Shown here piece after piece: positions 5,663-63,257 of a stretch of DNA of 64,000 nucleotides. The notes under the pieces were generated by a model. The model searched no databases and had not been told where the DNA came from. It saw nothing but the letters and a program-made list of their open reading frames with translations. The stretch's first letter is position 1, and each line of letters opens with the position of its first letter. This stretch comes from Meghimatium bilineatum (Eukaryota > Mollusca > Gastropoda > Stylommatophora > Philomycidae), in contig CM067298.1 in assembly GCA_034231615.1 (NCBI GenBank), positions 55,270,883 to 55,334,882 on the forward strand, given 5' to 3'. Both the position numbers and the translations under genes were made by a program.

Positions 5663-5701
5663 ATTTTTATCGCGATCCTAACTATGATAACAACACTGAT
5701 G
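5663..5701 (+). CDS. Microexon 1 (39 nt)
   Basis: The acceptor is a T-rich stretch ending TTTTTATACAG and the donor is GTATGTATAT, giving a 39-nt exon. In phase 1 it reads DFYRDPNYDNNTD, taking the first G from the previous exon and leaving a G for the next. Phase 2 contains a stop. Phase 0 is open here but closed in exons 3, 7 and 8, so phase 1 is preferred. The flanking 250 bp on each side are conserved with the other modules. It is near-identical to exon 4. No domain is recognised; the peptide is acidic and polar, compatible with a secreted or extracellular repeat. Confidence 0.7.
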
Positions 5702-6096
5702 GTATGTATATTATTTTTTTTAAAATTATATGTAGAAAAGGAAAATTTAATAGAATGGTTTTTAAAATGTTTCAAAATCATACACATATATATGCATTTT
5801 AAATCTACAAAATACATAAATGCACTATGAGCATAAAACTAGAATGTAACTTTTAACAACCAGGTTAAGAAAGAAAAATACATTGTACAATTTTAAATCA
5901 GGACATACTTATTATTAAAGTAGATAGAAGTACGTTTTATGGTGAAGTACTCTCCTTGAAATTCGGTCGCTAGTCATCTTGGTTATATGAGAGATTTTAC
6001 AAAATTAATATAATGAGGGTCTTGCTTGTATATAATTTTACTACTACGATATCCGCAGAAGATAATCGGAATATAGTTCCAGAATAGAATCCAGTA

Positions 6097-6098
<2 letters not shown>

Positions 6099-6168
<70 letters not shown>
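6099..6168. repeat. (TA)n microsatellite, about 70 bp
   Basis: This is an uninterrupted AT dinucleotide run. The corresponding site in copy B (about 17224) has only a few AT units, so this is a copy-specific expansion. Confidence 0.95.
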
Positions 6169-6171
<3 letters not shown>

Positions 6172-6439
6172 TTCTAGTTCTATGCTGATTTATAACTCTT
6201 AGTATGTCCATTATGTTTCTTTTTATTTACTTTTCCAATATTTACACCAACTGATGTTGTGCTGAGAGTGACCATGACTCACATTTTTGAATATTGTTTG
6301 AGTGGACGTGATCCCTCAGCGGATTAACTATGTCAGATTAAAATATTCATGTACCTACTGAAACTGTGGCCATGCTCGGTAGTATATCTGATCAATCATA
6401 CCCTTTGACACTTGAATGTCCGATCACGAATATAAATGT

Positions 6440-7340
6440 AATCTGTCTGGTCAGAAATTGTTACTTCCATAAAGAAATATATCTCAATATAACATTTTAG
6501 CACTCGCACTTCTGTACGCATTGATATAACTCCATTGCATAGAATATTCCTTTTTTTTTATTATTTTGGTTTGGCATGTGCTATTCTGTTCTCGATCTCA
6601 TTGGACTACCTGCCATCTGATGTTAAAATGGTGACAATATAATTGACATTATCCGCTTGATTTAATTTTGCATCATTGATAATAATACTGTATTTTGGCG
6701 GTGTGTATTTCTTTGAAACAACCATTACTCGTGTCTTTTTTCTTGTTTAGACTGAGACTTTTGTTTTCACTTTCTTGTACAACATGTCTTGAAGTTCTTT
6801 TTCACTACCTCAAATCAGACCTGTATCGTCCGCATATTGTAAATTATTCAGATTGTAACCCCCAACTGCTATTCTAGGCATACTTTCTATGTATCGCACA
6901 ATATCCTCGTGCACAGTGAGAAAAGATCTTCTAACAGTACACATCCGTTTCTGACGCCCATCTTTAACTTTTGGAATTTTACTACATTGCTGTGATTCTT
7001 CATGATCGCAGTTGCTTGTTTCCAATACATATTTCTCACTATCTATAGATCTTTCCCATCAACATTGAGTTTTTGTAATAATTGTTATCAATTCTGAATG
7101 CTTCACCATGCCAAATGCTTTACTATAATCTATGTAGTACAAATACAGATAATTTTCATTATTGGTCGTATTACATATATGGCACTTATTGTGTCATAGG
7201 AATGCATCTCCACATTGTTCTGCAAATTCTGGATTTAAATTTCTTCGTATTCGCCTCAAGATTACTCGAAGTATGATCATGGTCATCTGGTCCATAAGGA
7301 TGATTGTTCAGGAAAGCAAAGAGAAATCTTAGCGCCAAAT
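6440..7340 (-). pseudogene. LINE reverse transcriptase fragment with YADD box
   Basis: On the minus strand, the frame at 6810-7025 ends RIAVGGYNLNNLQYADDTG. This is the catalytic YADD box of a non-LTR reverse transcriptase with its usual IRxMP...GGYNINNLxYADDT context. Further left (6590-6740) lie decayed pieces of the following region, and further right the FDxVxH-like region. Stops and frameshifts break it throughout. Copy B at 17530-18410 has the same structure, so the insertion predates the large duplication. Confidence 0.8.
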
Positions 7341-7775
7341 AGCATACATTTTATGTACATTTTACGATGATGCGTATGACCTCATTATGAATGTTGTCCA
7401 ATTTGGAAATCACTACGGTCGAAACTGTTGTAGTCTTTGAGTGCGATGGACGTCTATTATTAATGCGAGTGCACAACGATGTCTATTTTCATCTTCTATA
7501 ATCGCACCGTGTTGCTGGCACCATAAAATGAGTAAAAAATAGTAATATTTGAAACATCCTTGCTTGTCCTGAAAGGTGACTACTGGAGTCATTTATGGAA
7601 TGACGTAGGCTGCCCCAAAACCAAATTTCAAGGTTAATACCAAAAGCTTTTGAAGTCGAATATGCCAAATAGAAAGACGTTGACATCACAACCAATTTGT
7701 AAAACATGACAAAACTCATCCTTTATCTGTACTAAGTCATCCTAGGCAGAAGGTGGTTCGAAAAAAACCATCACT

Positions 7776-7777
<2 letters not shown>

Positions 7778-7806
<29 letters not shown>
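7778..7806. repeat. Poly(A) tract
   Basis: A run of about 29 A lies in the 5' flank of exon 2. The sister tract at about 18846-18870 is shorter. It is a homopolymer expansion inside a conserved module. Confidence 0.9.
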
Positions 7807-7808
<2 letters not shown>

Positions 7809-7957
7809 ATTTTCTTCAATAATAGAACATTGAGATCTACCACTCATACATTTATATTTGATTTCTACAATGTTTGTGGTAGTTTATTGTACAATATAAA
7901 ACTTGATAAATTAAACAAGTTAGACTTTTGACAATGTTATGAACTTTATATTCTCAG

Positions 7958-7999
7958 TTACACAAAGTCCTGAGACTGACAATGAAGGCAGCGCTCCTG
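7958..7999 (+). CDS. Microexon 2 (42 nt)
   Basis: The acceptor is ACTTTATATTCTCAG and the donor is GTATGTATAT. Phase 1 reads VTQSPETDNEGSAP, with the first V completed by the G of the preceding exon. Phase 2 is closed by a stop. It is identical to exon 5 and clearly related to exon 6 (shared QSPETDNE core). The 5' flank TTTACAATATAAAACTTGAT is shared with exon 1, so all these exons descend from one duplicated module. Threonine, serine, proline and acidic residues predominate. No known domain is seen. Confidence 0.7.
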
Positions 8000-12948: not shown

Positions 12949-13008
12949 TTACAGAACATCCTAAATTAGGTTATGATGGAACAGATTATCCGGTAATTTA
13001 TGATGATG
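12949..13008 (+). CDS. Microexon 3 (60 nt, longest)
   Basis: The acceptor is CTATATTTAG and the donor is GTATGTATAT. Phase 1 gives a 20-residue acidic peptide beginning VTEHPKLGYDG and ending VIYDD. Phases 0 and 2 both contain TAA or TAG, so this exon fixes the phase of the whole series. Its start (VT) resembles exon 2 and its YD-rich middle resembles exon 1, so it may be a fusion or an ancestral longer form. The surrounding module flanks are conserved. Confidence 0.7.
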
Positions 13009-16791: not shown

Positions 16792-16830
16792 ATTTTTATC
16801 GCGAGTCTAACTATGATAACAACACGGATG
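16792..16830 (+). CDS. Microexon 4 (39 nt)
   Basis: Duplicate of exon 1 with the same acceptor and GTATGTATAT donor. Phase 1 reads DFYRESNYDNNTD. Three bases differ from exon 1: two adjacent ones change Asp-Pro to Glu-Ser and one is silent (Thr). The preserved frame and splice sites suggest both copies are used. Confidence 0.7.
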
Positions 16831-19025: not shown

Positions 19026-19067
19026 TTACACAAAGTCCTGAGACTGACAATGAAGGCAGCGCTCCTG
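19026..19067 (+). CDS. Microexon 5 (42 nt)
   Basis: All 42 bases are identical to exon 2 (VTQSPETDNEGSAP in phase 1), with a CTCAG acceptor and GTATGTATAT donor. It lies in copy B of the large duplication. The poly(A) tract about 150 bp upstream is shorter than in copy A. Confidence 0.7.
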
Positions 19068-22542: not shown

Positions 22543-22584
22543 GTGCGCAAAGTCCAGAGACTGACAATGAAGACACTGACAAGG
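22543..22584 (+). CDS. Microexon 6 (42 nt)
   Basis: The acceptor is TTTCTATTTTCAG and the donor is GTATGTATAT. Phase 1 reads GAQSPETDNEDTDK, homologous to exons 2 and 5 but divergent at both ends. Phase 2 has a stop. The module flanks upstream (TTTACAATATAAATGAGG) and downstream (CAAAATATTTATGACAATTTG) are conserved. Confidence 0.7.
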
Positions 22585-39273: not shown

Positions 39274-39315
<42 letters not shown>

Positions 39316-39334: not shown

Positions 39335-39370
<36 letters not shown>

Positions 39371-39526: not shown

Positions 39527-39559
39527 ATTCGTATGCAACATACGCTCCAGACGGTGAAG
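39527..39559 (+). CDS. Microexon 12 (33 nt), array type 1
   Basis: Identical to exon 11, including acceptor and GTATGT donor; DSYATYAPDGE. Confidence 0.75.
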
Positions 39560-41888: not shown

Positions 41889-41936
<48 letters not shown>

Positions 41937-41955
41937 ATAATAATAATAATAATAC

Positions 41956-41991
<36 letters not shown>

Positions 41992-42147
41992 TAATTAATA
42001 TGGCCACATTAACTACAATAATAATTACTACCAGCTTTGATACTTTTGCAACATTGAACAAACTTTGTAATGTGTATATACATGCCAAATAATTCAAGAT
42101 AAGTTAATATATAATTAACCTAGCATTAATTATTTTTTCTGTTATAG

Positions 42148-42180
42148 ATTCGTATGCAACATACGCTCCAGACGGTGAAG
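42148..42180 (+). CDS. Microexon 13 (33 nt), array type 1
   Basis: Identical to exon 11; DSYATYAPDGE. Confidence 0.75.
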
Positions 42181-43805: not shown

Positions 43806-44509
43806 TAAAATTTCCTGTCAACTCAGTCTGGTTTTAAATAGAATATATATTATTCCTATCTTAGAGGAGTTTCTTTTGATGCATGCTTTATAACGCTCTC
43901 ACATTCACAGTATCCTGAATTTATTATACGGTGTTGTTCTGCGTCATGGATAAAGAAACGTCTTAGTTGCGTCAATGTGACGTTTTGAAAATATGTCGTT
44001 CACTAAATTACTTGGCATACAGTGACACAATTATGCTTGCATTAACACCTTTGTCTTTCTACGTTAACGTTAATGACTAAATGAACATAACTATTTGAAA
44101 TAGTCAATGAGGAATATACTATACTAATGCTAAAAATAATTGAAATTAAACTCAACTGCGGTATTGCAAAAACAAATGTATTCAATTATCTTACATTGTG
44201 GCATTGAAGATAGCTAAACAGTATAAATATCATATAATTGGGGGAATTGAATACATGACGCTCTAAAATTTATGGAACGTGTTGTGAAGTATTTTACATA
44301 AAAAAACGTACTGCATTTTCACTATAAAATAGTACTTTATAACGAATATTCAGCAACATGTTCATTGACAGCAAGAAGCAAGTTGTGTAACATATCAAGC
44401 ATGTGGCATGTGATGCTGTTTAAAATTTAAAATGCTAATCAAATGGATTAGCACCTTATTCCGAGATGTTTGTGTTTCCAACACACTTGTATATGTCTAA
44501 AAGATATAT

Positions 44510-44557
<48 letters not shown>

Positions 44558-44576
44558 ATAATAATAATAATAATAC

Positions 44577-44612
<36 letters not shown>

Positions 44613-44768
44613 TAATTAATATGGCCACATTAACTACAATAATAATTACTACCAGCTTTGATACTTTTGCAACATTGAACAAACTTTGTAATGTGTATAT
44701 ACATGCCAAATAATTCAAGATAAGTTAATATATAATTAACCTAGCATTAATTATTTTTTCTGTTATAG

Positions 44769-44801
44769 ATTCGTATGCAACATACGCTCCAGACGGTGAA
44801 G
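44769..44801 (+). CDS. Microexon 14 (33 nt), array type 1
   Basis: Identical to exon 11; DSYATYAPDGE. Confidence 0.75.
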
Positions 44802-45810
44802 GTATGTTTTGTAATATTTTATTTACATACTTGACTTTTCGACAATTTAAAAATAAAGTTAGAAAACATGATTGACAAGGTGTAGAGAATTGACTTTAAT
44901 GAATTCGGGTTTCCCAATATGAACTTCGCTCCTTTCATCAAAGAGGCATGTCACTGCTAGAGAATACCACATGCAGCACATAATAGTAAGAGGTCTCCGA
45001 AACAAATGAATTTTGTAAACAAGATGTCACGAGCCAGATTCTAATGTGCTATTCCTTGTTAAATAAATAGAAAATAAAATTCGTGAATGTTTAAACAACT
45101 TGCATATTGTTTTTGGCTCAATCGTCAACTGATGGACTTTTCGATCAGTGAAAAGAAAGATATGAACCATCATTACAAAGAAGCACGCATACCACTTGTG
45201 ATTATTACCGTGTTGAGATGAATACTAGTAAATTCACCTTCCAACAGGAACACATGATCTTTCCGTTGCCAACTTACAATAAATCACAATATCTATGAAC
45301 TATTGCGCTGTCTTTATAATTTAGTACTTTAGAGACATTTTAGTCAACACATTTTATGAATTTTACCAATTCGTGACATTTCAAAAAGATGCAATCTTAG
45401 TCAAAGTATTGATAGAACAATACCTAAATTTGCATTGTTTATTTTGTATCTGAAAATGATGTTGAAATGACATGAATGATTTACTTTATTTACACCATAT
45501 GTACTCCATTCCTCTTTAACTAAGTGGGCTTCTCTCGAGCCACGAATACACTAATAGTACGTTTCTTCTTCCATTGTTTGTTTGGAGATTATCATATAAT
45601 TAAACATTACAATCTTTGGAAGCTTTTTCTCTTCTATAAACCTGGATGTGTAACTCGTACAGAAATTCGTATAATGTTCCCACACTGTTGTTTTTGTGGA
45701 TCAGTGTATTTCCCTTAATATTTCATATTCTGATCACTCTTGGAGAATATGCTTTGCTTTCTAATATACCTGTCCACACGTACATTTGACTGTATTGCTA
45801 AACGTGAACG

Positions 45811-46426
45811 TTATATACATGTGAAAATAGAGTCTATTCCTCTCTGTTCTGAGACATAGAATGACAGTTTGTTCATTATTTGGAAGTCATTTTGCTTTAG
45901 TGCTGACATTCTAATTGATGTGATTATCTGTTTCTTTTGATTGTGTGTTGTTGGTACACATTGGTGATCAACAATTCGTCCTCCATTGAAAGATGGCCTG
46001 CTTTCTCGTTTGCAGATATTTAACAATATAATGGTATCCGCTGTAAGGCTGATGTGTCCTGACTGGTAATTTCGACTAGGGATGTTTGCGGATCTAGCGG
46101 TTTCTGTACTGTGGTGTGTGATGCGCTGATTTTGCATATGTCATGAAAAGTACAGGCAGTGGGACAAGATTGACGTTCAACAGTTTTTGGTTGCCACTTG
46201 ATTACTTGGATTTCCGCGTTGTAATTAGCCATAATTTCTCATTGGTACTTTGATTTCTATCCCTGAAACTGATAGGGCACTCCGTGTATATTATTGGTCT
46301 TCTAATTATTAATGCATTATCTGCTGACCCTTCTGTATACACATTGATCCATTTCTTATGCGTATTTATCTTAAAGGAAACTGAATGTAACTGACTTGAT
46401 TTGTACATTATTCCGTTTATTATCAC
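45811..46426 (-). pseudogene. Fossil RNase H, unit 4
   Basis: As in unit 1. Confidence 0.55.
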
Positions 46427-47130
46427 TAAAATTTCCTGTCAACTCAGTCTGGTTTTAAATAGAATATATATTATTCCTATCTTAGAGGAGTTTCTTTTGA
46501 TGCATGCTTTATAACGCTCTCACATTCACAGTATCCTGAATTTATTATACGGTGTTGTTCTGCGTCATGGATAAAGAAACGTCTTAGTTGCGTCAATGTG
46601 ACGTTTTGAAAATATGTCGTTCACTAAATTACTTGGCATACAGTGACACAATTATGCTTGCATTAACACCTTTGTCTTTCTACGTTAACGTTAATGACTA
46701 AATGAACATAACTATTTGAAATAGTCAATGAGGAATATACTATACTAATGCTAAAAATAATTGAAATTAAACTCAACTGCGGTATTGCAAAAACAAATGT
46801 ATTCAATTATCTTACATTGTGGCATTGAAGATAGCTAAACAGTATAAATATCATATAATTGGGGGAATTGAATACATGACGCTCTAAAATTTATGGAACG
46901 TGTTGTGAAGTATTTTACATAAAAAAACGTACTGCATTTTCACTATAAAATAGTACTTTATAACGAATATTCAGCAACATGTTCATTGACAGCAAGAAGC
47001 AAGTTGTGTAACATATCAAGCATGTGGCATGTGATGCTGTTTAAAATTTAAAATGCTAATCAAATGGATTAGCACCTTATTCCGAGATGTTTGTGTTTCC
47101 AACACACTTGTATATGTCTAAAAGATATAT

Positions 47131-47175
<45 letters not shown>

Positions 47176-47194
47176 ATAATAATAATAATAATAC

Positions 47195-47230
<36 letters not shown>

Positions 47231-47386
47231 TAATTAATATGGCCACATTAACTACAATAATAATTACTACCAGCTTTGATACTTTTGCAACATTGAACAA
47301 ACTTTGTAATGTGTATATACATGCCAAATAATTCAAGATAAGTTAATATATAATTAACCTAGCATTAATTATTTTTTCTGTTATAG

Positions 47387-47419
47387 ATTCGTATGCAACA
47401 TACGCTCCAGACGGTGAAG
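47387..47419 (+). CDS. Microexon 15 (33 nt), array type 1
   Basis: Identical to exon 11; DSYATYAPDGE. Confidence 0.75.
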
Positions 47420-48428
47420 GTATGTTTTGTAATATTTTATTTACATACTTGACTTTTCGACAATTTAAAAATAAAGTTAGAAAACATGATTGACAAGGTG
47501 TAGAGAATTGACTTTAATGAATTCGGGTTTCCCAATATGAACTTCGCTCCTTTCATCAAAGAGGCATGTCACTGCTAGAGAATACCACATGCAGCACATA
47601 ATAGTAAGAGGTCTCCGAAACAAATGAATTTTGTAAACAAGATGTCACGAGCCAGATTCTAATGTGCTATTCCTTGTTAAATAAATAGAAAATAAAATTC
47701 GTGAATGTTTAAACAACTTGCATATTGTTTTTGGCTCAATCGTCAACTGATGGACTTTTCGATCAGTGAAAAGAAAGATATGAACCATCATTACAAAGAA
47801 GCACGCATACCACTTGTGATTATTACCGTGTTGAGATGAATACTAGTAAATTCACCTTCCAACAGGAACACATGATCTTTCCGTTGCCAACTTACAATAA
47901 ATCACAATATCTATGAACTATTGCGCTGTCTTTATAATTTAGTACTTTAGAGACATTTTAGTCAACACATTTTATGAATTTTACCAATTCGTGACATTTC
48001 AAAAAGATGCAATCTTAGTCAAAGTATTGATAGAACAATACCTAAATTTGCATTGTTTATTTTGTATCTGAAAATGATGTTGAAATGACATGAATGATTT
48101 ACTTTATTTACACCATATGTACTCCATTCCTCTTTAACTAAGTGGGCTTCTCTCGAGCCACGAATACACTAATAGTACGTTTCTTCTTCCATTGTTTGTT
48201 TGGAGATTATCATATAATTAAACATTACAATCTTTGGAAGCTTTTTCTCTTCTATAAACCTGGATGTGTAACTCGTACAGAAATTCGTATAATGTTCCCA
48301 CACTGTTGTTTTTGTGGATCAGTGTATTTCCCTTAATATTTCATATTCTGATCACTCTTGGAGAATATGCTTTGCTTTCTAATATACCTGTCCACACGTA
48401 CATTTGACTGTATTGCTAAACGTGAACG

Positions 48429-49044
48429 TTATATACATGTGAAAATAGAGTCTATTCCTCTCTGTTCTGAGACATAGAATGACAGTTTGTTCATTATTTG
48501 GAAGTCATTTTGCTTTAGTGCTGACATTCTAATTGATGTGATTATCTGTTTCTTTTGATTGTGTGTTGTTGGTACACATTGGTGATCAACAATTCGTCCT
48601 CCATTGAAAGATGGCCTGCTTTCTCGTTTGCAGATATTTAACAATATAATGGTATCCGCTGTAAGGCTGATGTGTCCTGACTGGTAATTTCGACTAGGGA
48701 TGTTTGCGGATCTAGCGGTTTCTGTACTGTGGTGTGTGATGCGCTGACTTTGCATATGTCATGAAAAGTACAGGCAGTGGGACAAGATTGACGTTCAACA
48801 GTTTTTGGTTGCCACTTGATTACTTTGATTTCCGCGTTGTAATTAGCCATAATTTCTCATTGGTACTTTGATTTCTATCCCGGAAACTGATAGGGCACTC
48901 CGTGTATATTATTGGTCTTCTAATTATTAATGCATTATCTGCTGACCCTTCTGTATACACATTGATCCATTTCTTATGCGTATTTATCTTAAAGGAAACT
49001 GAATGTAACTGACTTGATTTGTACATTATTCCGTTTATTATCAC
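48429..49044 (-). pseudogene. Fossil RNase H, unit 5
   Basis: As in unit 1 with three or so private substitutions (MQSQ start, NYNAEIK, DICKVS). Confidence 0.55.
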
Positions 49045-49748
49045 TAAAATTTCCTGTCAACTCAGTCTGGTTTTAAATAGAATATATATTATTCCTATCT
49101 TAGAGGAGTTTCTTTTGATGCATGCTTTATGACGCTCTCACATTCACAGTATCCTGAATTTATTATACGGTGTTGTTCTGCGTCATGGATAAAGAAACGT
49201 CTTAGTTGCGTCAATGTGACGTTTTGAAAATATGTCGTTCACTAAATTACTTGGCATACAGTGACACAATTATGCTTGCATTAACACCTTTGTCTTTCTA
49301 CGTTAACGTTAATGACTAAATGAACATAACTATTTGAAATAGTCAATGAGGAATATACTATACTAATGCTAAAAATAATTGAAATTAAACTCAACTGCGG
49401 TATTGCAAAAACAAATGTATTCAATTATCTTACATTGTGGCATTGAAGATAGCTAAACAGTATAAATATCATATAATTGGGGGAATTGAATACATGACGC
49501 TCTAAAATTTATGGAACGTGTTGTGAAGTATTTTACATAAAAAAACGTACTGCATTTTCACTATAAAATAGTACTTTATAACGAATATTCAGCAACATGT
49601 TCATTGACAGCAAGAAGCAAGTTGTGTAACATATCAAGCATGTGGCATGTGATGCTGTTTAAAATTTAAAATGCTAATCAAATGGATTAGCACCTTATTC
49701 CGAGATGTTTGTGTTTCCAACACACTTGTATATGTCTAAAAGATATAT

Positions 49749-49796
<48 letters not shown>

Positions 49797-49815
49797 ATAA
49801 TAATAATAATAATAC

Positions 49816-49851
<36 letters not shown>

Positions 49852-50007
49852 TAATTAATATGGCCACATTAACTACAATAATAATTACTACCAGCTTTGA
49901 TACTTTTGCAACATTGAACAAACTTTGTAATGTGTATATACATGCCAAATAATTCAAGATAAGTTAATATATAATTAACCTAGCATTAATTATTTTTTCT
50001 GTTATAG

Positions 50008-50040
50008 ATTCGTATGCAACATACGCTCCAGACGGTGAAG
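50008..50040 (+). CDS. Microexon 16 (33 nt), array type 1
   Basis: Identical to exon 11; DSYATYAPDGE. Confidence 0.75.
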
Positions 50041-51049
50041 GTATGTTTTGTAATATTTTATTTACATACTTGACTTTTCGACAATTTAAAAATAAAGTTA
50101 GAAAACATGATTGACAAGGTGTAGAGAATTGACTTTAATGAATTCGGGTTTCCCAATATGAACTTCGCTCCTTTCATCAAAGAGGCATGTCACTGCTAGA
50201 GAATACCACATGCAGCACATAATAGTAAGAGGTCTCCGAAACAAATGAATTTTGTAAACAAGATGTCACGAGCCAGATTCTAATGTGCTATTCCTTGTTA
50301 AATAAATAGAAAATAAAATTCGTGAATGTTTAAACAACTTGCATATTGTTTTTGGCTCAATCGTCAACTGATGGACTTTTCGATCAGTGAAAAGAAAGAT
50401 ATGAACCATCATTACAAAGAAGCACGCATACCACTTGTGATTATTACCGTGTTGAGATGAATACTAGTAAATTCACCTTCCAACAGGAACACATGATCTT
50501 TCCGTTGCCAACTTACAATAAATCACAATATCTATGAACTATTGCGCTGTCTTTATAATTTAGTACTTTAGAGACATTTTAGTCAACACATTTTATGAAT
50601 TTTACCAATTCGTGACATTTCAAAAAGATGCAATCTTAGTCAAAGTATTGATAGAACAATACCTAAATTTGCATTGTTTATTTTGTATCTGAAAATGATG
50701 TTGAAATGACATGAATGATTTACTTTATTTACACCATATGTACTCCATTCCTCTTTAACTAAGTGGGCTTCTCTCGAGCCACGAATACACTAATAGTACG
50801 TTTCTTCTTCCATTGTTTGTTTGGAGATTATCATATAATTAAACATTACACTCTTTGGAAGCTTTTTCTCTTCTATAAACCTGGATGTGTAACTCGTACA
50901 GAAATTCGTATAATGTTCCCACACTGTTGTTTTTGTGGATCAGTGTATTTCCCTTAATATTTCATATTCTGATCACTCTTGGAGAATATGCTTTGCTTTC
51001 TAATATACCTGTCCACACGTACATTTGACTGTATTGCTAAACGTGAACG

Positions 51050-51665
51050 TTATATACATGTGAAAATAGAGTCTATTCCTCTCTGTTCTGAGACATAGAA
51101 TGACAGTTTGTTCATTATTTGGAAGTCATTTTGCTTTAGTGCTGACATTCTAATTGATGTGATTATCTGTTTCTTTTGATTGTGTGTTGTTGGTACACAT
51201 TGGTGATCAACAATTCGTCCTCCATTGAAAGATGGCCTGCTTTCTCGTTTGCAGATATTTAACAATATAATGGTATCCGCTGTAAGGCTGATGTGTCCTG
51301 ACTGGTAATTTCGACTAGGGATGTTTGCGGATCTAGCGGTTTCTGTACTGTGGTGTGTGATGCGCTGATTTTGCATATGTCATGAAAAGTACAGGCAGTG
51401 GGACAAGATTGACGTTCAACAGTTTTTGGTTGCCACTTGATTACTTGGATTTCCGCGTTGTAATTAGCCATAATTTCTCATTGGTACTTTGATTTCTATC
51501 CCTGAAACTGATAGGGCACTCCGTGTATATTATTGGTCTTCTAATTATTAATGCATTATCTGCTGACCCTTCTGTATACACATTGATCCATTTCTTATGC
51601 GTATTTATCTTAAAGGAAACTGAATGTAACTGACTTGATTTGTATATTATTCCGTTTATTATCAC
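51050..51665 (-). pseudogene. Fossil RNase H, unit 6
   Basis: As in unit 1, including the shared IIYKSS variant at the start. Confidence 0.55.
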
Positions 51666-52369
51666 TAAAATTTCCTGTCAACTCAGTCTGGTTTTAAATA
51701 GAATATATATTATTCCTATCTTAGAGGAGTTTCTTTTGATGCATGCTTTATGACGCTCTCACATTCACAGTATCCTGAATTTATTATACGGTGTTGTTCT
51801 GCGTCATGGATAAAGAATCGTCTTAGTTGCGTCAATGTGACGTTATGAAAATATGTCGTTCACTAAATTACTTGGCATACAGTGACACAATTATGCTTGC
51901 ATTAACACCTTTGTCTTTCTACGTTAACGTTAATGACTAAATGAACATAACTATTTGAAATAGTCAATGAGGAATATACTATACTAATGCTAAAAATAAT
52001 TGAAATTAAACTCAACTGCGGTATTGCAAAAACAAATGTATTCAATTATCTTACATTGTGGCATTGAAGATAGCTAAACAGTATAAATATCATATAATTG
52101 GGGGAATTGAATACATGACGCTCTAAAATTTATGGAACGTGTTGTGAAGTATTTTACATAAAAAAACGTACTGCATTTTCACTAAAAAATAGTACTTTAT
52201 AACGAATATTCAGCAACATGTTCATTGACAGCAAGAAGCAAGTTGTGTAACATATCAAGCATGTGGCATGTGATGCTGTTTAAAATTTAAAATGCTAATC
52301 AAATGGATTAGCACCTTATTCCGAGATGTTTGTGTTTCCAACACACTTGTATATGTCTAAAAGATATAT

Positions 52370-52411
<42 letters not shown>

Positions 52412-52430
52412 ATAATAATAATAATAATAC

Positions 52431-52466
<36 letters not shown>

Positions 52467-52622
52467 TAATTAATATGGCCACATTAACTACAATAATAAT
52501 TACTACCAGCTTTGATACTTTTGCAACATTGAACAAACTTTGTAATGTGTATATACATGCCAAATAATTCAAGATAAGTTAATATATAATTAACCTAGCA
52601 TTAATTATTTTTTCTGTTATAG

Positions 52623-52655
52623 ATTCGTATGCAACATACGCTCCAGACGGTGAAG
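52623..52655 (+). CDS. Microexon 17 (33 nt), array type 1
   Basis: Identical to exon 11; DSYATYAPDGE. Confidence 0.75.
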
Positions 52656-53664
52656 GTATGTTTTGTAATATTTTATTTACATACTTGACTTTTCGACAAT
52701 TTAAAAATAAAGTTAGAAAACATGATTGACAAGGTGTAGAGAATTGACTTTAATGAATTCGGGTTTCCCAATATGAACTTCGCTCCTTTCATCAAAGAGG
52801 CATGTCACTGCTAGAGAATACCACATGCAGCACATAATAGTAAGAGGTCTCCGAAACAAATGAATTTTGTAAACAAGATGTCACGAGCCAGATTCTAATG
52901 TGCTATTCCTTGTTAAATAAATAGAAAATAAAATTCGTGAATGTTTAAACAACTTGCATATTGTTTTTGGCTCAATCGTCAACTGATGGACTTTTCGATC
53001 AGTGAAAAGAAAGATATGAACCATCATTACAAAGAAGCACGCATACCACTTGTGATTATTACCGTGTTGAGATGAATACTAGTAAATTCACCTTCCAACA
53101 GGAACACATGATCTTTCCGTTGCCAACTTACAATAAATCACAATATCTATGAACTATTGCGCTGTCTTTATAATTTAGTACTTTAGAGACATTTTAGTCA
53201 ACACATTTTATGAATTTTACCAATTCGTGACATTTCAAAAAGATGCAATCTTAGTCAAAGTATTGATAGAACAATACCTAAATTTGCATTGTTTATTTTG
53301 TATCTGAAAATGATGTTGAAATGACATGAATGATTTACTTTATTTACACCATATGTACTCCATTCCTCTTTAACTAAGTGGGCTTCTCTCGAGCCACGAA
53401 TACACTAATAGTACGTTTCTTCTTCCATTGTTTGTTTGGAGATTATCATATAATTAAACATTACAATCTTTGGAAGCTTTTTCTCTTCTATAAACCTGGA
53501 TGTGTAACTCGTACAGAAATTCGTATAATGTTCCCACACTGTTGTTTTTGTGGATCAGTGTATTTCCCTTAATATTTCATATTCTGATCACTCTTGGAGA
53601 ATATGCTTTGCTGTCTAATATACCTGTCCACACGTACATTTGACTGTATTGCCAAACGTGAACG

Positions 53665-54280
53665 TTATATACATGTGAAAATAGACTCTATTCCTGTCTG
53701 TTCTGAGACATAGAATGACAGTTTGTTCATTATTTGGAAGTCATTTTGCTTTAGTGCTGACATTCTAATTGATGTGATTATCTGTTTCTTTTGATTGTGT
53801 GTTGTTGGTACACATTGGTGATCAACAATTCGTCCTCCATTGAAAGATGGCCTGCTTTCTCGTTTGCAGATATTTAACAATATAATGGTATCCGCTGTAA
53901 GGCTGATGTGTCCTGACTGGTAATTTCGACTAGGGATGTTTGCGGATCTAGCGGTTTCTGTACTGTGGTGTGTGATGCGCTGATTTTGCATATGTCATGA
54001 AAAGTACAGGCAGTGGGACAAGATTGACGTTCAACAGTTTTTGGTTGCCACTTGATTACTTGGATTTCCGCGTTGTAATTAGCCATAATTTCTCCTTGGT
54101 ACTTTGATTTCTATCCCTGAAACTGATAGGGCACTCCGTGTATATTATTGGTCTTCTAATTATTAATGCATTATCTGCTGATCCTTCTGTATACACATTG
54201 ATCCATTTCTTATGCGTATTTATCTTAAAGGAAACTGAACGTAACTGACTTGATTTGTACATTATTCCGTTTATTATCAC
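53665..54280 (-). pseudogene. Fossil RNase H, unit 7
   Basis: As in unit 1; its C-terminal side shows SEQTGIESIF as in the type 2 units instead of SEQRGIDSIF. Confidence 0.55.
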
Positions 54281-54984
54281 TAAAATTTCCTGTCAACTCA
54301 GTCTGGTTTTAAATAGAATATATATTATTCCTATCTTAGAGGAGTTTCTTTTGATGCATGCTTTATGACGCTCTCACATTCAAAGTATCCTGAAATTATT
54401 ATACGGTGTTGTTCTGCGTCATGGATAAAGAAACGTCTTAGTTGCGTCAATGTGACGTTTTGAAAATATGTCGTTCACTAAATTACTTGGCATACAGTGA
54501 CACAATTATGCTTGCATTAACACCTTTGTCTTTCTACGTTAACGTTAATGACTAAATGAACATAACTATTTGAAATAGTCAATGAGGAATATACTATACT
54601 AATGCTAAAAATAATTGAAATTAAACTCAACTGCGGTATTGCAAAAACAAATGTATTCAATTATCTTACATTGTGGCATTGAAGATAGCTAAACAGTATA
54701 AATATCATATAATTGGGGGAATTGAATACATGACGCTCTAAAATTTATGGAACGTGTTGTGAAGTATTTTACATAAAAAAACGTACTGCATTTTCACTAA
54801 AACATAGTACTTTATAACGAATATTCAGCAACATGTTCATTGACAGCAAGAAGCAAGTTGTGTAACATATCAAGCATGTGGCATGTGATGCTGTTTAAAA
54901 TTTAAAATGCTAATCAAATGGATTAGCACCTTATTCCGAGATGTTTGTGTTTCCAACACACTTGTATATGTCTAAAAGATATAT

Positions 54985-55032
<48 letters not shown>

Positions 55033-55045
55033 ATAATAATAATAA

Positions 55046-55084
<39 letters not shown>

Positions 55085-55240
55085 TAATTAATATGGCCAC
55101 ATTAACTACAATAATAATTACTACCAGCTTTGATACTTTTGCAACATTGAACAAACTTTGTAATGTGTATATACATGCCAAATAATTCAAGATAAGTTAA
55201 TATATAATTAACCTAGCATTAATTATTTTTTCTGTTATAG

Positions 55241-55273
55241 ATTCGTATGCAACATACGCTCCAGACGGTGAAG
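55241..55273 (+). CDS. Microexon 18 (33 nt), array type 1
   Basis: Identical to exon 11; DSYATYAPDGE. It is the last type 1 exon. Confidence 0.75.
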
Positions 55274-56282
55274 GTATGTTTTGTAATATTTTATTTACAT
55301 ACTTGACTTTTCGACAATTTAAAAATAAAGTTAGAAAACATGATTGACAAGGTGTAGAGAATTGACTTTAATGAATTCGGGTTTCCCAATATGAACTTCG
55401 CTCCTTTCATCAAAGAGGCATGTCACTGCTAGAGAATACCACATGCAGCACATAATAGTAAGAGGTCTCCGAAACAAATGAATTTTGTAAACAAGATGTC
55501 ACGAGCCAGATTCTAATGTGCTATTTCTTGTTAAATAAATAGAAAATAAAATTCGTGAATGTTTAAACAACTTGCATATTGTTTTTGGCTCAATCGTCAA
55601 CTGATGGACTTTTCGATCAGTGAAAAGAAAGATATGAACCATCATTACAAAGAAGCACGCATACCACTTGTGATTATTACCGTGTTGAGATGAATACTAG
55701 TAAATTCACCTTCCAACAGGAACACATGATCTTTCCGTTGCCAACTTACAATAAATCACAATATCTATGAACTATTGCGCTGTCTTTATAATTTAGTACT
55801 TTAGAGACATTTTAGTCAACACATTTTATGAATTTTACCAATTCGTGACATTTCAAAAAGATGCAATCTTAGTCAAAGTATTGATAGAACAATACCTAAA
55901 TTTGCATTGTTTATTTTGTATCTGAAAATGATGTTGAAATGACATGAATGATTTACTTTATTTACACCATATGTACTCCATTCCTCTTTAACTAAGTGGG
56001 CTTCTCTCGAGCCACGAATACACTAATAGTACGTTTCTTCTTCCATTGTTTGTTTGGAGATTGTCATATAATTAAACATTACAATCTTTGGAAGCTTTTT
56101 CTCTTCTATAAACCTGGATGTGTAACTCGTACAGAAATTCGTATAATGTTCCCACACTGTTGTTTTTGTGGATCAGTGTATTTCCCTTAATATTTCATAT
56201 TCTGATAACTCTTGGAGAATATGCTTTGCTTTCTAATATACCTGTCCACACGTACATTTGACTGTATTGCTAAACGTGAACG

Positions 56283-56898
56283 TTATATACATGTGAAAAT
56301 AGAGTCTATTCCTCTCTGTTCTGAGACATAGAATGACAGTTTGTTCATTATTTGGAAGTCATTTTGCTTTAGTGCTGACATTCTAATTGATGTGATTATC
56401 TGTTTCTTTTGATTGTGTGTTGTTGGTACACATTGGTGATCAACAATTCGCCCTCCATTGAAAGATGGCCTGCTTTCTCGTTTGCAGATATTTAACAATA
56501 TAATGGTATCCGCTGTAAGGCTGATGTGTCCTGACTGGTAATTTCGACTAGGGATGTTTGCGGATCTAGCGGTTTCTGTACTGTGGTGTGTGATGCGCTG
56601 ATTTTGCATATGTCATGAAAAGTACAGGCAGTGGGACAAGATTGACGTTCAACAGTTTTCGGTTGCCACTTGATTACTTGGATTTCCGAGTTGTAATTAG
56701 CCATAATTTCTCATTGGTACTTTGATTTCTATCCCTGAGACTGATAGGGCACTCCGTGTATATTATTGGTCTTCTAATTATTAATGCATTATCTGCTGAC
56801 CCTTCTGTATACACATTGATCCATTTCTTATGCGTATTTATCTTAAAGGAAACTGAATGTAACTGACTTGATTTGTACATTATTCCGTTTATTATCAC
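56283..56898 (-). pseudogene. Fossil RNase H, unit 8
   Basis: As in unit 1, with substitutions (NYNSEIQ; ISLRDRN). Confidence 0.5.
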
Positions 56899-57612
56899 TA
56901 AAATTTCCTGTCAACTCAGTCTGGATTTAAATAGAATATCTATTATTCCTATCTCAAAGGAGTTTCTTTTGATGCATGCTTTAAGACGCTCACACATTCA
57001 AATTATCCTGAAATTATTATACGGTGTTGTTCTGCGCCATGGATAAAGAAATGTCTCAGTTGCGTCAATGTGACGTTTTAAAAATATGTCGTTCACTTAA
57101 TTACTTGGCATACAGTGACACAATTGTACTTGCATTAATACCAATGTCTTTCTACTTTAACGTTAATGATTGAATGAACATAACTATTTGAAATAGTCAA
57201 TGAGGAATATACTAATGCTAAAAACAATTGAAATTAAACTCAACGGCGGTATTGCAAAAACAAATGCATTCAAGTATCTTACATTGTGGCATTGAAAATA
57301 GCTAAACAGTATAAATATCATATAATTGGGGGAATTGAAAACATGACGCTCTAAAATATATGGAAAGTGTTGTGAAGTATTTTACATAAAAAAACGTACT
57401 GCATTTTCACTAAAAAATAGTACTTTAGAACAAATATTCAGCAACATGTTCATTGACAGCAAGAAGCAAGTTGTGTAACATATCAAGCATGTGGCATGTT
57501 ATGCTGTTTAAAATTTAAAATGCTAATAAAATGGATTAGCACCTTATTCCCAGATGCTTGTGTTTCCAACACACTTGTATAGGTCTAAAAGATCTATCTA
57601 CTACTACGAACG

Positions 57613-57663
<51 letters not shown>

Positions 57664-57682
57664 TTACTACTACTACTACTAG

Positions 57683-57717
<35 letters not shown>

Positions 57718-57867
57718 TATATTGCCACATTAGCCACAAGAATAATTACTACCAGTATTGATACTTCTGCAACATTGAACAAACTTTGAAATGTTTATAT
57801 ACATGCCAAATAATTCGAGATAAGTTAATATATAATTAACCTATCATTAATTATTTTTCTGTTATAG

Positions 57868-57900
57868 ATTTGTATGCAACAGACGCTCCAGTAGATGAAG
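57868..57900 (+). CDS. Microexon 19 (33 nt), array type 2
   Basis: The acceptor is TTTTTCTGTTATAG and the donor is GTATATTTTA, lacking the G at donor position +5. Phase 1 reads DLYATDAPVDE. Both other phases have stops. Against type 1 there are five base changes in four codons, all amino-acid changing (Ser to Leu, Tyr to Asp, Asp to Val, Gly to Asp). Confidence 0.7.
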
Positions 57901-58913
57901 GTATATTTTATAATATTTTATTTACATACTTTACTTTTCGACAATTTAAAACACTACAGTTAGAAAACACGATTGAGAAGGCGTAGAGAATTGACTTTAA
58001 TGAATTCGGGTTTCCCAATATGAACTCCGCTCCTGTCATCAAAGAGGCATGTCACTGCTAGAGAATACCACATGTACCGCAAAACACTACGAGGTCCCCG
58101 AAACAAATGAACGTTGTAAACAAGATGCCACGAGACAGATTCTAGTGTGCTATTTCTTGTTAAATAAATAGAAAATAAAAGATGTGAATGTTTAAACAAC
58201 TTGCATATTAATTATTTCTCAATCGTCAACTAATGAACTCCTCGATCAGTGAAAAAAAAGATATGAACCATCATTACAAAGAAGCACGCATACCACTTGT
58301 GATGATTACCGTGATGAGATTAATAACATTAAATTCACTTTTCTACAGGGACACATGATCTTTCCGTTGCCAACTTACAAAAAACCACAATATCTATGAA
58401 TTTTTGCGCTGTATTTGGTAATGTAGTACTTTAGGTAAATTTGAGTCAACACATTTTATGAATTATACCAATTCGTGACATTTCAAATAGATGCGATCTT
58501 AATCAAAGTTTTGATAGAACAACACCTAATTTTGCATTGTTTATTTTGTATCTGAAAATGACGTTGAAATGACATGAATGATTTACTTTATTTACACCAT
58601 ATGTACTCCATTCCTCTTTAACTAAGTGGGCTTCTCTCGTGCCAGGAATATCACTAATAATACGTTTCTTTTTCCATTGTTTGTTTGGAGATTGTCATAT
58701 AATTAAACATTCCTATTTTTAGAAGCTTTTTCTCTTCTATAAACCTGGATGTGTAACTCGTACAGAAATTCGTATAATGTTCCCACACTGTTGTTTTTGT
58801 GGATCAGTTTATTTACCTTAATATTTTATATTCTGATCACTCTTGTAGAATATGCTTTGCTGTCTAATATACCTGTCCACACGTACATTTGACTGTATTG
58901 CCAAACGTGAACG

Positions 58914-59517
58914 TTATATACATGTGAAAATAGACTCTATTCCTGTCTGTTCTGAGACATAGAATGACAGTTTGTTCATTATTTGGAAGTCATTTTGCTT
59001 TAGTGCTGACATTCTAATTGTTGTGATTATCTGTTTCTTTTGATTGTGTGTTGTTGGTACACATTGGTGATCAGCAATTCGCCCTCCATAGAAAGATGGC
59101 CTGCTTTCTCGTTTGCAGATATTTAACAATATAATGGTATCCGCTGTAAGGCTGATGTGTCCTGACTGGTAATTTCGACTAGGGATGTTTGCGGATATAG
59201 CGGTTTCTGTACTGTGGTGTGTGATGCGATGATTTTGAATCTGTCATGAAAACTACAGGCAGTGGGACAAGATTGACGTTCAACAGTTTTCGGTTGCCAC
59301 TTGATTACTTGGATTTCCGAGTTGTAATTAGACATAATTTCTCCTTGGTACTTTTATTTCTATCCCTGAAACTGATAGGGCACTCCGTGTATATTATTGG
59401 TCTTCTAATTATTAATGCATTATCTGCTGACCCCTTCTGTATACACATTGATCCATTTCTTATGCGTATTTATCTTAAAGGAAACTGAATGTAACTGACT
59501 TGATTTGTACATTATTC
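58914..59517 (-). pseudogene. Fossil RNase H, unit 9
   Basis: Contains SNYNSEIQVIKWQ and a GSADNA block, with one extra C near 59432 that adds a frameshift within the YTEGS block compared with type 1. Confidence 0.5.
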
Positions 59518-60244
59518 CGTTTATTATCACTAAAATTTCCTGTCAACTCAGTCTGGATTTAAATAGAATATCTATTATTCCTATCTCAAAGGAGTTTCTT
59601 TTGATGCATGCTTTAAGACGCTCACACATTCAAATTATCCTGAAATTATTATACGGTGTTGTTCTGCGCCATGGATAAAGAAATGTCTCAGTTGCGTCAA
59701 TGTGACGTTTTAAAAATATGTCGTTCACTTAATTACTTGGCATACAGTGACACAATTGTACTTGCATTAATACCAATATCTTTCTACTTTAACGTTAATG
59801 ATTGAATGAACATAACTATTTGAAATAGTCAATGAGGAATATACTAATGCTAAAAACAATTGAAATTAAACTCAACGGCGGTATTGCAAAAACAAATGTA
59901 TTTAAGTATCTTACATTGTGGCATTGAAAATAGCTAAACAGTATAAATATCATATAATTGGGGTAATTGAAAACATGACGCTCTAAAATATATGGAAAGT
60001 GCTGTGTAGTATTTTACATAAAAAAACGTACTGCATTTTCACTAAAAAATAGTACTTTAGAACGAATATTCAGCAACATGTTCATTGACAGCAAGAAGCA
60101 AGTTGTGTAACATATCAAGCATGTGGCATGTTATGCTGTTTAAAATTTAAAATGCCAATAAAATGTATTCACACCTTATTCCCAGATGCTTGTGTTTCCA
60201 ACACACTTGTATAGGTCTAAAAGATCTATCTACTACTACGAACG

Positions 60245-60319
<75 letters not shown>

Positions 60320-60358
60320 TTACTACTACTAGTACTACTACTGCTACTATAACCATCT

Positions 60359-60391
<33 letters not shown>

Positions 60392-60541
60392 TATATTGCC
60401 ACATTAGCCACAAGAATAATTACTACCAGTATTGATACTTCTGCAACATTGAACAAACTTTGAAATGTTTATATACATGCCAAATAATTCGAGATAAGTT
60501 AATATATAATTAACCTATCATTAATTATTTTTCTGTTATAG

Positions 60542-60574
60542 ATTTGTATGCAACAGACGCTCCAGTAGATGAAG
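60542..60574 (+). CDS. Microexon 20 (33 nt), array type 2
   Basis: Identical to exon 19, with the same GTATAT donor; DLYATDAPVDE. Confidence 0.7.
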
Positions 60575-61587
60575 GTATATTTTATAATATTTTATTTACA
60601 TACTTTACTTTTCGACAATTTAAAACACTACAGTTAGAAAACATGATTGAGAAGGCGTAGAGAATTGACTTTAATGAATTCGGGTTTCCCAATATGAACT
60701 CCGCTCCTGTCATCAAAGAGGCATGTCACTGCTAGAGAATACCACATGTACCGCAAAACACTACGAGGTCCCCGAAACAAATGAACGTTGTAAACAAGAT
60801 GCCACGAGACAGATTCTAGTGTGCTATTTCTTGTTAAATAAATAGAAAATAAAAGATGTGAATGTTTAAACAACTTGCATATTAATTATTTCTCAATCGT
60901 CAACTAATGAACTCCTCGATCAGTGAAAAAAAAGATATGAACCATCATTACAAAGAAGCACGCATACCACTTGTGATGATTACCGTGATGAGATTAATAA
61001 CATTAAATTCACTTTTCTACAGGGACACATGATCTTTCCGTTGCCAACTTACAAAAAACCACAATATCTATGAATTTTTGCGCTGTATTTGGTAATGTAG
61101 TACTTTAGGTAAATTTGAGTCAACACATTTTATGAATTATACCAATTCGTGACATTTCAAATAGATGCGATCTTAATCAAAGTTTTGATAGAACAACACC
61201 TAAATTTGCATTGTTTATTTTGTATCTGAAAATGACGTTGAAATGACATGAATGATTTACTTTATTTACACCATATGTACTCCATTCCTCTTTAACTAAG
61301 TGGGCTTCTCTCGTGCCAGGAATATCACTAATAATACGTTTCTTTTTCCATTGTTTGTTTGGAGATTGTCATATAATTAAACATTCCTATTTTTAGAAGC
61401 TTTTTCTCTTCTATAAACCTGGATGTGTAACTCGTACAGAAATTCGTATAATGTTCCCACACTGTTGTTTTTGTGGATCAGTTTATTTACCTTAATATTT
61501 TATATTCTGATCACTCTTGTAGAATATGCTTTGCTGTCTAATATACCTGTCCACACGTACATTTGACTGTATTGCCAAACGTGAACG

Positions 61588-62191
61588 TTATATACATGTG
61601 AAAATAGACTCTATTCCTGTCTGTTCTGAGACATAGAATGACAGTTTGTTCATTATTTGGAAGTCATTTTGCTTTAGTGCTGACATTCTAATTGTTGTGA
61701 TTATCTGTTTCTTTTGATTGTGTGTTGTTGGTACACATTGGTGATCAGCAATTCGCCCTCCATAGAAAGATGGCCTGCTTTCTCGTTTGCAGATATTTAA
61801 CAATATAATGGTATCCGCTGTAAGGCTGATGTGTCCTGACTGGTAATTTCGACTAGGGATGTTTGCGGATATAGCGGTTTCTGTACTGTGGTGTGTGATG
61901 CGATGATTTTGAATCTGTCATGAAAACTACAGGCAGTGGGACAAGATTGACGTTCAACAGTTTTCGGTTGCCACTTGATTACTTGGATTTCCGAGTTGTA
62001 ATTAGACATAATTTCTCCTTGGTACTTTTATTTCTATCCCTGAAACTGATAGGGCACTCCGTGTATATTATTGGTCTTCTAATTATTAATGCATTATCTG
62101 CTGACCCCTTCTTTATACACATTGATCCATTTCTTATGCGTATTTATCTTAAAGGAAACTGAATGTAACTGACTTGATTTGTACATTATTC
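61588..62191 (-). pseudogene. Fossil RNase H, unit 10
   Basis: As unit 9, with a further substitution (CTTTATACAC) in the YTEGS block. Confidence 0.5.
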
Positions 62192-62918
62192 CGTTTATTA
62201 TCACTAAAATTTCCTGTCAACTCAGTCTGGATTTAAATAGAATATCTATTATTCCTATCTCAAAGGAGTTTCTTTTGATGCATGCTTTAAGACGCTCACA
62301 CATTCAAATTATCCTGAAATTATTATACGGTGTTGTTCTGCGCCATGGATAAAGAAATGTCTCAGTTGCGTCAATGTGACGTTTTAAAAATATGTCGTTC
62401 ACTTAATTACTTGGCATACAGTGACACAATTGTACTTGCATTAATACCAATATCTTTCTACTTTAACGTTAATGATTGAATGAACATAACTATTTGAAAT
62501 AGTCAATGAGGAATATACTAATGCTAAAAACAATTGAAATTAAACTCAACGGCGGTATTGCAAAAACAAATGTATTCAAGTATCTTACATTGTGGCATTG
62601 AAAATAGCTAAACAGTATAAATATCATATAATTGGGGTAATTGAAAACATGACGCTCTAAAATATATGGAAAGTGTTGTGTAGTATTTTACATAAAAAAA
62701 CGTACTGCATTTTCACTAAAAAATAGTACTTTAGAACGAATATTCAGCAACATGTTCATTGACAGCAAGAAGCAAGTTGTGTAACATATCAAGCATGTGG
62801 CATGTTATGCTGTTTAAAATTTAAAATGCCAATAAAATGGATTCACACCTTATTCCCAGATGCTTGTGTTTCCAACACACTTGTATAGGTCTAAAAGATC
62901 TATCTACTACTACGAACG

Positions 62919-63005
<87 letters not shown>

Positions 63006-63224
63006 TTACTACTACTAGTACTACTACTGCTACTATAACCATCTCTACTACTACTACTACTACTACTACTACTATATATTGCCACATTAGCCACAAGAAT
63101 AATTACTACCAATATTGATACTTCTGCAACATTGAACAAACTTTGAAATGTTTATATACATGCCAAATAATTCGAGATAAGTTAATATATAATTAACCTA
63201 TCATTAATTATTTTTCTGTTATAG

Positions 63225-63257
63225 ATTTGTATGCAACAGACGCTCCAGTAGATGAAG
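63225..63257 (+). CDS. Microexon 21 (33 nt), array type 2
   Basis: Identical to exon 19; DLYATDAPVDE, GTATAT donor. It is the last exon visible; the gene continues to the right. Confidence 0.7.

Follow-up and report, generated by a model that had tools for sequence, protein, structure and literature searches.

The locus and the predicted gene

We analysed a 64,000-nucleotide (nt) stretch of the genome of the gastropod Meghimatium bilineatum (the window; C1:55270883-55334882, C1 being contig CM067298.1 of a 1.61-Gb genome in 32 contigs). It lies within a gene, here called gene A, that codes for a member of a small family of ordinary secreted mollusc proteins and whose first intron appears to have acquired about 35 tiny, frame-neutral exons. 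Window position p corresponds to C1 55270882+p; numbers under 1 and over 64,000 denote flanking sequence, and 234 kb of sequence were examined altogether. Three neighbouring paralogues in the same cluster on C1 are called genes B, C and D. A single genome was analysed, the models of gene A in this organism rest on genomic sequence, and the copy number of its tandem array is as given by the assembly.

Gene A is predicted on the forward strand at C1:55252186-55386110, where it spans approximately 134 kb and 43 exons (Table 1), i.e. a signal-peptide exon, 35 symmetric phase-1 microexons of 33-60 nt (together 61% of the predicted coding sequence) and seven more exons, the last of which closes with a stop codon at 115,228 directly after the C-terminal Cys of the family. 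Joined as predicted, the signal exon, the 35 microexons, exon 2 and the six domain exons are shown to form one uninterrupted 724-amino-acid frame with no internal stop. The original prediction had described 21 short segments in the window (39, 42, 60, 39, 42, 42, 42, 51, 45 and 33 nt, then eleven of 33 nt; 798 nt in sum) as a gene built of microexons. All 21 were recovered in place and at these lengths, but they are only the middle of a gene that reaches 18.7 kb upstream and 51 kb downstream of the window. Many frame-neutral phase-1 microexons do lie in this predicted secreted-protein gene, which is nevertheless a conserved gene with an invaded first intron. The AG/GTATGT borders ascribed to the segments were seen in 18 of them, the last three (57868, 60542 and 63225) having a GTATAT donor, and 11 distinct sequences were counted rather than ten. 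Phase 1 alone was open throughout, as had been claimed (11/11 distinct sequences, against 6/11 for phase 0 and 4/11 for phase 2), and phase 1 was also rightly proposed as the splicing phase, since the homologous flanking exons fix the phase of the host intron as 1.

A scan from -60 to 25 kb returned six candidate signal-peptide exons with a phase-1 end; the signal exon used here ranked sixth among them by score and was chosen by eye. The scan was made without knowledge of the homologues, whose N-termini the exon later matched (MWQLTVFFAGITV / MLGLTVFCACLVV / MRSLIVFFACLAV), and the signal peptide is supported by hydropathy and by homology to the N-termini of Arion proteins. A TATA box (TATAAATA) precedes the ATG by ~100 nt. 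The last letter of exon 1 is T and the first two of exon 2 are GA, and the direct ancestral splice would read T|GA, a stop codon, so that at least one microexon would be needed. Exon 34518 starts with AA and would give TAA if joined to exon 1; all other microexons give sense codons. At its full length of 444 residues, the predicted linker consists of Asp and Glu to 27% and has a net charge of -105 and six N-glycosylation sequons; it is rich in Asp, Ala, Thr, Glu and Tyr and has a single Cys, in exon 31050.

Table 1. Predicted exons of gene A, and signal and second exons of its paralogues, in window coordinates.
Feature	Position	Strand	Description
Signal-peptide exon 1	-18696..-18624	+	MWQLTVFFAGITVYSCFSAARVDS; ends in phase 1
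Microexon, upstream type, 7th of 35	5663..5701	+	39 nt, DFYRDPNYDNNTD; AG/GTATGT borders, length divisible by three, phase 1 open
Microexon, upstream type	7958..7999	+	42 nt, VTQSPETDNEGSAP; identical to 19026-19067
Microexon, upstream type	12949..13008	+	60 nt, VTEHPKLGYDGTDYPVIYDD; homologous exon at -9532
Microexon, upstream type	16792..16830	+	39 nt, DFYRESNYDNNTD; splice borders, phase 1 open
Microexon, upstream type	19026..19067	+	42 nt, VTQSPETDNEGSAP; same sequence as 7958-7999
Microexon, last of upstream type	22543..22584	+	42 nt, GAQSPETDNEDTDK
Microexon	27242..27283	+	42 nt, DSLARLDGLWNHLR; ends WNHLR
Microexon	29257..29307	+	51 nt, GLLRQLKTILRELKNFR; diverged duplicate of 27242 module, flanks ~70% identical; weak acceptor
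Microexon	31050..31094	+	45 nt, TLEVTQTCQEPNGN after junction codon; acceptor weaker than most
Array exon, diverged first unit	34518..34550	+	33 nt, ESLATSASEGG; exon 10 of the original prediction
Type A exon, copy 1 of 8	36912..36944	+	33 nt, DSYATYAPDGE
Type A exon, copy 2	39527..39559	+	
Type A exon, copy 3	42148..42180	+	
Type A exon, copy 4	44769..44801	+	
Type A exon, copy 5	47387..47419	+	
Type A exon, copy 6	50008..50040	+	
Type A exon, copy 7	52623..52655	+	
Type A exon, copy 8	55241..55273	+	
Type B exon, copy 1 of 11	57868..57900	+	33 nt, DLYATDAPVDE; weaker donor GTATAT
Type B exon, copy 2	60542..60574	+	
Type B exon, copy 3	63225..63257	+	
Type B exons, eight more downstream	65884 to 84541	+	
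Broken array exon	87132-87165	+	34 nt; phase 1 holds a stop
Exon 2 (matches ancestral exon 2)	95688-95723	+	36 nt; weak donor GTATTG
Domain exon	97594-97692	+	Fits in phase
Domain exon	99117-99217	+	Fits in phase
Domain exon	104352-104454	+	Fits in phase
Domain exon	108998-109168	+	Fits in phase
Domain exon	112071-112231	+	Fits in phase
Domain exon, ends in stop	115130-115228	+	Fits in phase
Gene B, signal exon	124244		Donor set by eye; scan gave a later donor
Gene B, exon 2	130997		36 nt; ends WNALE
Gene C, signal exon	160835		
Gene C, exon 2	165445		27 nt; ends WNDLK
Gene D, signal exon	-53795	-	
Gene D, exon 2	-55240	-	24 nt; ends WDGLR

A family of secreted proteins without the linker

Judged by its sequence, gene A is a member of the secreted protein family typified by P0001 of Arion vulgaris. 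Without its microexons, the predicted protein aligns with Arion P0002 over 280 residues with 0 gaps (47% identical) and with Arion P0001 at 49% identity with 6 gaps (P0001 and P0002 being A0A0B7AVX3 and A0A0B7AU65). The gap-free match places all microexons at one point, the junction of exons 1 and 2; both Arion proteins share with gene A the signal peptide, the exon-2 region and the whole domain, and are without the microexon linker. A composite query of the downstream exons returned 16 relatives (Arion vulgaris P0001 and P0002, four from Plakobranchus and ten contig-derived), to which a longer query added Lingula, Crassostrea and Elysia. Seven of the relatives (P0003-P0009) are contigs of ~0.9-1.1 kb with a whole or near-whole frame of 274-282 amino acids; short yet almost full-length in frame, they look like cDNA and thereby support the joining of the domain exons. 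Gene A carries the features of the family, i.e. the signal peptide, the exon-2 region and the domain with its conserved W..GKC...MGKH.WYN, EHP and terminal Cys, and by eye keeps 19 of 20 invariant residues, the exception being Cys135 -> Trp. The Trp of the exon-2 motif (W-[DN]-x-L-[KR]) is replaced in exon 95688, which reads SHPVLDVVK where Arion P0001 reads SPAWNNLK. The domain is without a Pfam family and gave no clear structural match, an Ependymin-related or LolA-like half-barrel fold being an unconfirmed candidate.

Family matches in the genome fell in one cluster on C1 (13/13 in one search and 15/16 in another), and a weak single-exon domain match at C21:24949606-24949746 (41%, E 6.7e-4) is a possible fifth relative. 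In each of genes B, C and D one short symmetric phase-1 exon (24-36 nt) was found between signal and domain; no microexon array was seen in any of the three, where further short exons are possible. The distance between exons 1 and 2 is ~1.4 kb in D, 4.5 kb in C and 6.7 kb in B, compared with 114 kb in A. The WNHLR end of microexon 27242 resembles the exon-2 ends of B, C and D and suggests that exon 2 was copied to give some of the microexons; 27242 itself is possibly such a copy, its DNA match to exon 2 of gene B being weak (18/23 nt, E 1.9). In gene B, the family's sixth exon (140820-140992) matches in two frames with a break near 140,900, and B may therefore carry a frameshift or a sequencing error.

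Sequence evidence for the predicted microexons

All 35 microexons have a length divisible by three and are open in phase 1. They comprise 17 distinct sequences, all 17 open in phase 1, 11 in phase 0 and 4 in phase 2. When segments of the same lengths were taken at random offsets (150-900 nt), phase 1 was open in a mean of 7.5/17 and a maximum of 15/17 (2000 trials); this does not amount to a clean p-value because the exons are related and part of the set was chosen as divisible by three and open. The phase of the host intron and the flank-only profiles described below depend less on the choice of exons.

A splice-site model, one of the checks suggested in the original prediction, was run in generic form over 204 kb with GTATGT donors allowed; 40 phase-1 symmetric candidates passed, and 15 of the top 17 were microexons of gene A, the other two being exons of gene B and of the gene A domain. 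At their own borders 27/35 microexons passed, and eight failed the acceptor cut. Within 70 kb of non-redundant intron-1 sequence, 23/44 candidates on the forward strand had a length divisible by three and an open phase 1, compared with 7/44 on the minus strand; stricter cuts gave 20/32 vs 6/21 and 14/20 vs 3/12. Taken by these signals, the microexons are probably real exons.

Upstream modules

Twelve of the microexons belong to an upstream family of modules between about -15.1 and 22.8 kb, half of them (6/12) upstream of the window, each with one exon of 39, 42, 45 or 60 nt. A splice-site matrix made from the other exons first brought exons -8927 (42 nt) and -6761 (45 nt) to light. For exon 12949, an alternative in-frame acceptor at 12955 (54 nt) scores higher in the generic splice model. 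Profiles made from the intron flanks only, and built from these same 12 modules, were run over the 234 kb; all 12 modules found hold an intact, phase-1-open exon of a length divisible by three with splice borders, and these profiles disclosed no thirteenth module. The upstream-flank profile gave two weak partial matches (-9176 and 22384), each 0.1-0.3 kb before a counted module. In 66 pairwise comparisons the exons differed by 0.43 and the flanks by 0.26 upstream and 0.21 downstream (the former figure raised by the flank of -8927, which aligns poorly), and exon divergence exceeded that of both flanks in 51/66 pairs; because the pairs are related, these counts do not constitute a formal test.

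Several longer repeats overlap this region. The stretches 2639-8926 and 13967-19992 form a ~6-kb duplication (91-96% identical in three pieces) carrying two microexons per copy (5663/7958 and 16792/19026). A 1.1-kb repeat (1497-2623 and 8925-10051; 98% identity) is closer than its surroundings and may be a recent copy or conversion. A 91-95% identical block, G+C-richer than its surroundings, occurs at 4062-5392 and 15306-16531 and, downstream, at 150055 and 161691; it recurs as far as the first intron of paralogue C, as a dispersed or cluster-specific repeat. A 35-bp minisatellite (31319-32136; 23.4 copies, 92% matches) lies in the intron that follows microexon 31050. The flanks also hold fragments at -16615..-16189, -44440..-43566 (minus strand) and -24796..-24241 (minus strand), whose translations we take to be reverse-transcriptase and RNase-H-like, of the long interspersed nuclear element (LINE) type.

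The 2.6-kb tandem array

Self-BLAST revealed an array of a 2.6-kb unit on the forward strand from 34.4 to 89.1 kb (34445 to ~89,080; 34445..64000 within the window) with 21 exon places, in the order of a diverged first unit, eight type A units, eleven type B units and one broken unit. The exon sequence is identical across the eight type A copies, and likewise across the eleven of type B. Over ~1 kb of intron, substitutions amount to 0.14% among six type A units, 0.07% among six type B units and 8.3% between the two types; over shorter intron stretches, the first unit is 19% diverged from type A and the last unit 11%. Compared over their whole length and with gaps counted, type A units match the first of their type at 97.7-98.2% identity. 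With its GTATAT donor, the type B exon scores 15.8 in the generic model vs 21.5 for type A (GTATGT), so that partial inclusion would be expected first at type B exons. When 401 nt of the unit (36850-37250) were searched against the genome, long matches appeared at the array only, with 40 of 95 candidates scored. Short pieces at query positions ~154-352 match other contigs at 69-88% identity, indicating that the unit contains a dispersed repeat.

Interpretation and alternatives

We consider it likely that gene A is one secreted-protein gene with a microexon linker between signal peptide and domain. Its microexons would have arisen within intron 1 as modules of intron plus exon were duplicated locally time after time, some of the microexons perhaps deriving from exon 2 itself. 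Transcription would start from the TATA box upstream of exon 1, the spliceosome would include most or all of the microexons, and the protein would be secreted with a linker of up to 444 residues. As nearly all exons are frame-neutral, skipping, unequal crossing-over and change of copy number would alter linker length and leave the frame intact. Inclusion of the microexons in the protein is to be expected with good confidence. Their variable skipping is a tentative proposal, falling somewhat short of an even chance. The free skipping originally envisaged agrees with the near-universal frame neutrality; it is limited by the stop codon that would arise if exon 1 were spliced straight to 95688 or 34518. 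The linker is probably a disordered, acidic and possibly glycosylated stalk, and secretion into mucus or haemolymph is plausible.

Several observations weigh against this model. Every splice junction of gene A is predicted from sequence; the last array copy (87132), at 34 nt, is frame-shifted and meets a stop in phase 1; splice sites are weaker at exons 29257 and 31050; and exon 95688 combines its weak donor (GTATTG) with the loss of the conserved Trp. No microexon-bearing protein was found in a database of 5.8 billion, where the longer query gave three matches, all to the domain, and another search none at E <= 1. Neither was a processed retrocopy with joined 33-nt exons found, all 19 matches being single array exons. 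Positive selection on the upstream exons is not clear, the proportions of non-synonymous (pN) and synonymous (pS) differences being 0.268 and 0.352 summed over 22 same-length pairs. Gaps in multiples of three (53/53 in upstream-module exons vs 22/141 and 27/180 in their flanks) mostly restate the exon lengths and are no separate proof.

An alternative to variable inclusion, which leaves the gene model itself untouched, is that all microexons are constitutive and encode a long repetitive stalk without combinatorial isoforms. Other proteins with many equal-phase short exons encode long repetitive stalks. This possibility deserves serious weight, if rather less than even, and fits everything observed: skipping one of the identical type A or type B copies would change length and not sequence, and exon 1 meets a stop when joined directly to exon 2 or 34518. 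The weaker type B donors (15.8 vs 21.5) would, however, favour leaky inclusion.

It is improbable that the microexons are relics of a tandem-duplicated intron 1, with most copies unspliced and few or none in the protein. The frame-shifted last copy accords with such decay, and the near-identity of the array introns means that the array is young, which left constraint on its exons little time to become visible. Yet the 12 upstream modules, with flanks 21-26% and exons 43% apart, have all kept lengths divisible by three, an open phase 1 and splice borders, and types A and B both keep an open exon across introns 8% apart. We give equally little credence to the array copy number being an assembly artefact. 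Assemblers miscount arrays of this kind, in which the sampled introns within type A and within type B are >99.8% identical (substitutions only); type A, type B, the first unit and the broken last copy can nonetheless be told apart, so that a real array of at least four unit kinds exists, and the 12 upstream modules are independent of the array. Kinship of gene A, by descent or transfer, with schistosome microexon genes or polymorphic mucins is exceedingly improbable: the likeness is one of layout only, the species-labelled domain relatives are molluscs and a brachiopod (Lingula), and the neighbouring paralogues of the cluster point to growth of the cassette in place. Gene A most likely encodes, as read from its exons, a real secreted protein with an acidic linker of potentially variable length.

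Comparison with known microexon systems

Nearest by layout is SmPoMuc, the polymorphic mucins of the parasite Schistosoma mansoni, described as carrying a 27-bp exon 2 with introns in ~1-kb tandem repeats, up to ~20 per gene, before a conserved 3' part, and a hammerhead between exons 9 and 10 (PMC2576457). Tandem repeats of a short exon plus introns (in gene A, a first unit and 20 further copies, the last broken), a conserved 3' region and a secreted protein, variable in SmPoMuc, are common to both. Gene A has a larger unit (2.6 kb vs ~1 kb) and a longer repeated exon (33 nt vs 27 bp) and, unlike SmPoMuc, 15 further microexons of other sequence before the array. Rfam gave nothing in the window; the introns of the gene A domain lie outside it. 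No sequence homology to SmPoMuc was found among the 19 domain relatives returned, none of them schistosome-labelled, no direct comparison having been made. SmVAL6 of Schistosoma mansoni joins a conserved secreted domain to a block of small symmetric exons, which comes after the domain exons and is attributed to recombination with a micro-exon gene (MEG); its isoforms were seen by rapid amplification of cDNA ends (PMC4015677, PMC4350168). In gene A the block precedes the domain and, unlike SmVAL6, its paralogues suggest growth in place.

MEGs are described as having a signal peptide and many symmetric exons of 6-36 bp that make up about 75-80% of the coding region (PMC5825161, PMC4350168), and are said to appear restricted to platyhelminths (PMC4350168). 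Their products are secreted or membrane-anchored, and skipping of exons gives rise to protein variants. Gene A likewise has a signal peptide and many short symmetric exons, but its microexons are of 33-60 nt, occupy 61% of the coding region and are attached to a conserved domain; exons of at most 36 nt (21 exons, 696/2175 nt) account for only 32%. The kinship with schistosome microexon genes raised in the original prediction gained no support, no sequence relation being found, and gene A peptides had no schistosome match in a search that requires shared 5-residue words. With no sequence relation found, convergence is the likelier reading. Aphid bicycle genes, putative insect effectors, and megacycle genes also have many microexons, nearly all starting at codon position 2 (PMC9168663). 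What is called phase 2 in those genes is intron phase 1 as named here, a frame common to gene A. Bicycle proteins carry a paired-cysteine motif, which was not found in gene A, with its one Cys in 444 linker residues. Although similar in layout, gene A thus departs from a feature that defines the MEGs and from one that defines the bicycle genes.

No microexon gene of a mollusc was reported in the titles and abstract openings searched, a literature from which subscription papers were mostly absent. If transcripts confirm the model, gene A would, as far as that literature shows, be the first mollusc gene described with this layout. Molluscs host the trematodes in which this microexon layout is best known, and it is conceivable, albeit unlikely, that the snail gene independently evolved the principle of SmPoMuc and the MEGs, a secreted protein diversified through an expandable, frame-neutral cassette, with copy number and splice forms differing from animal to animal and a role at a surface that meets microbes or parasites. 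To our knowledge, the starting gene of schistosome and aphid microexon genes is usually not recognisable. The cluster of gene A may show such a starting state, in paralogues with a single tiny phase-1 exon beside a gene with 35 more; its modules are of graded age and, if this is true, the successive steps by which a microexon gene is born could be traced here.

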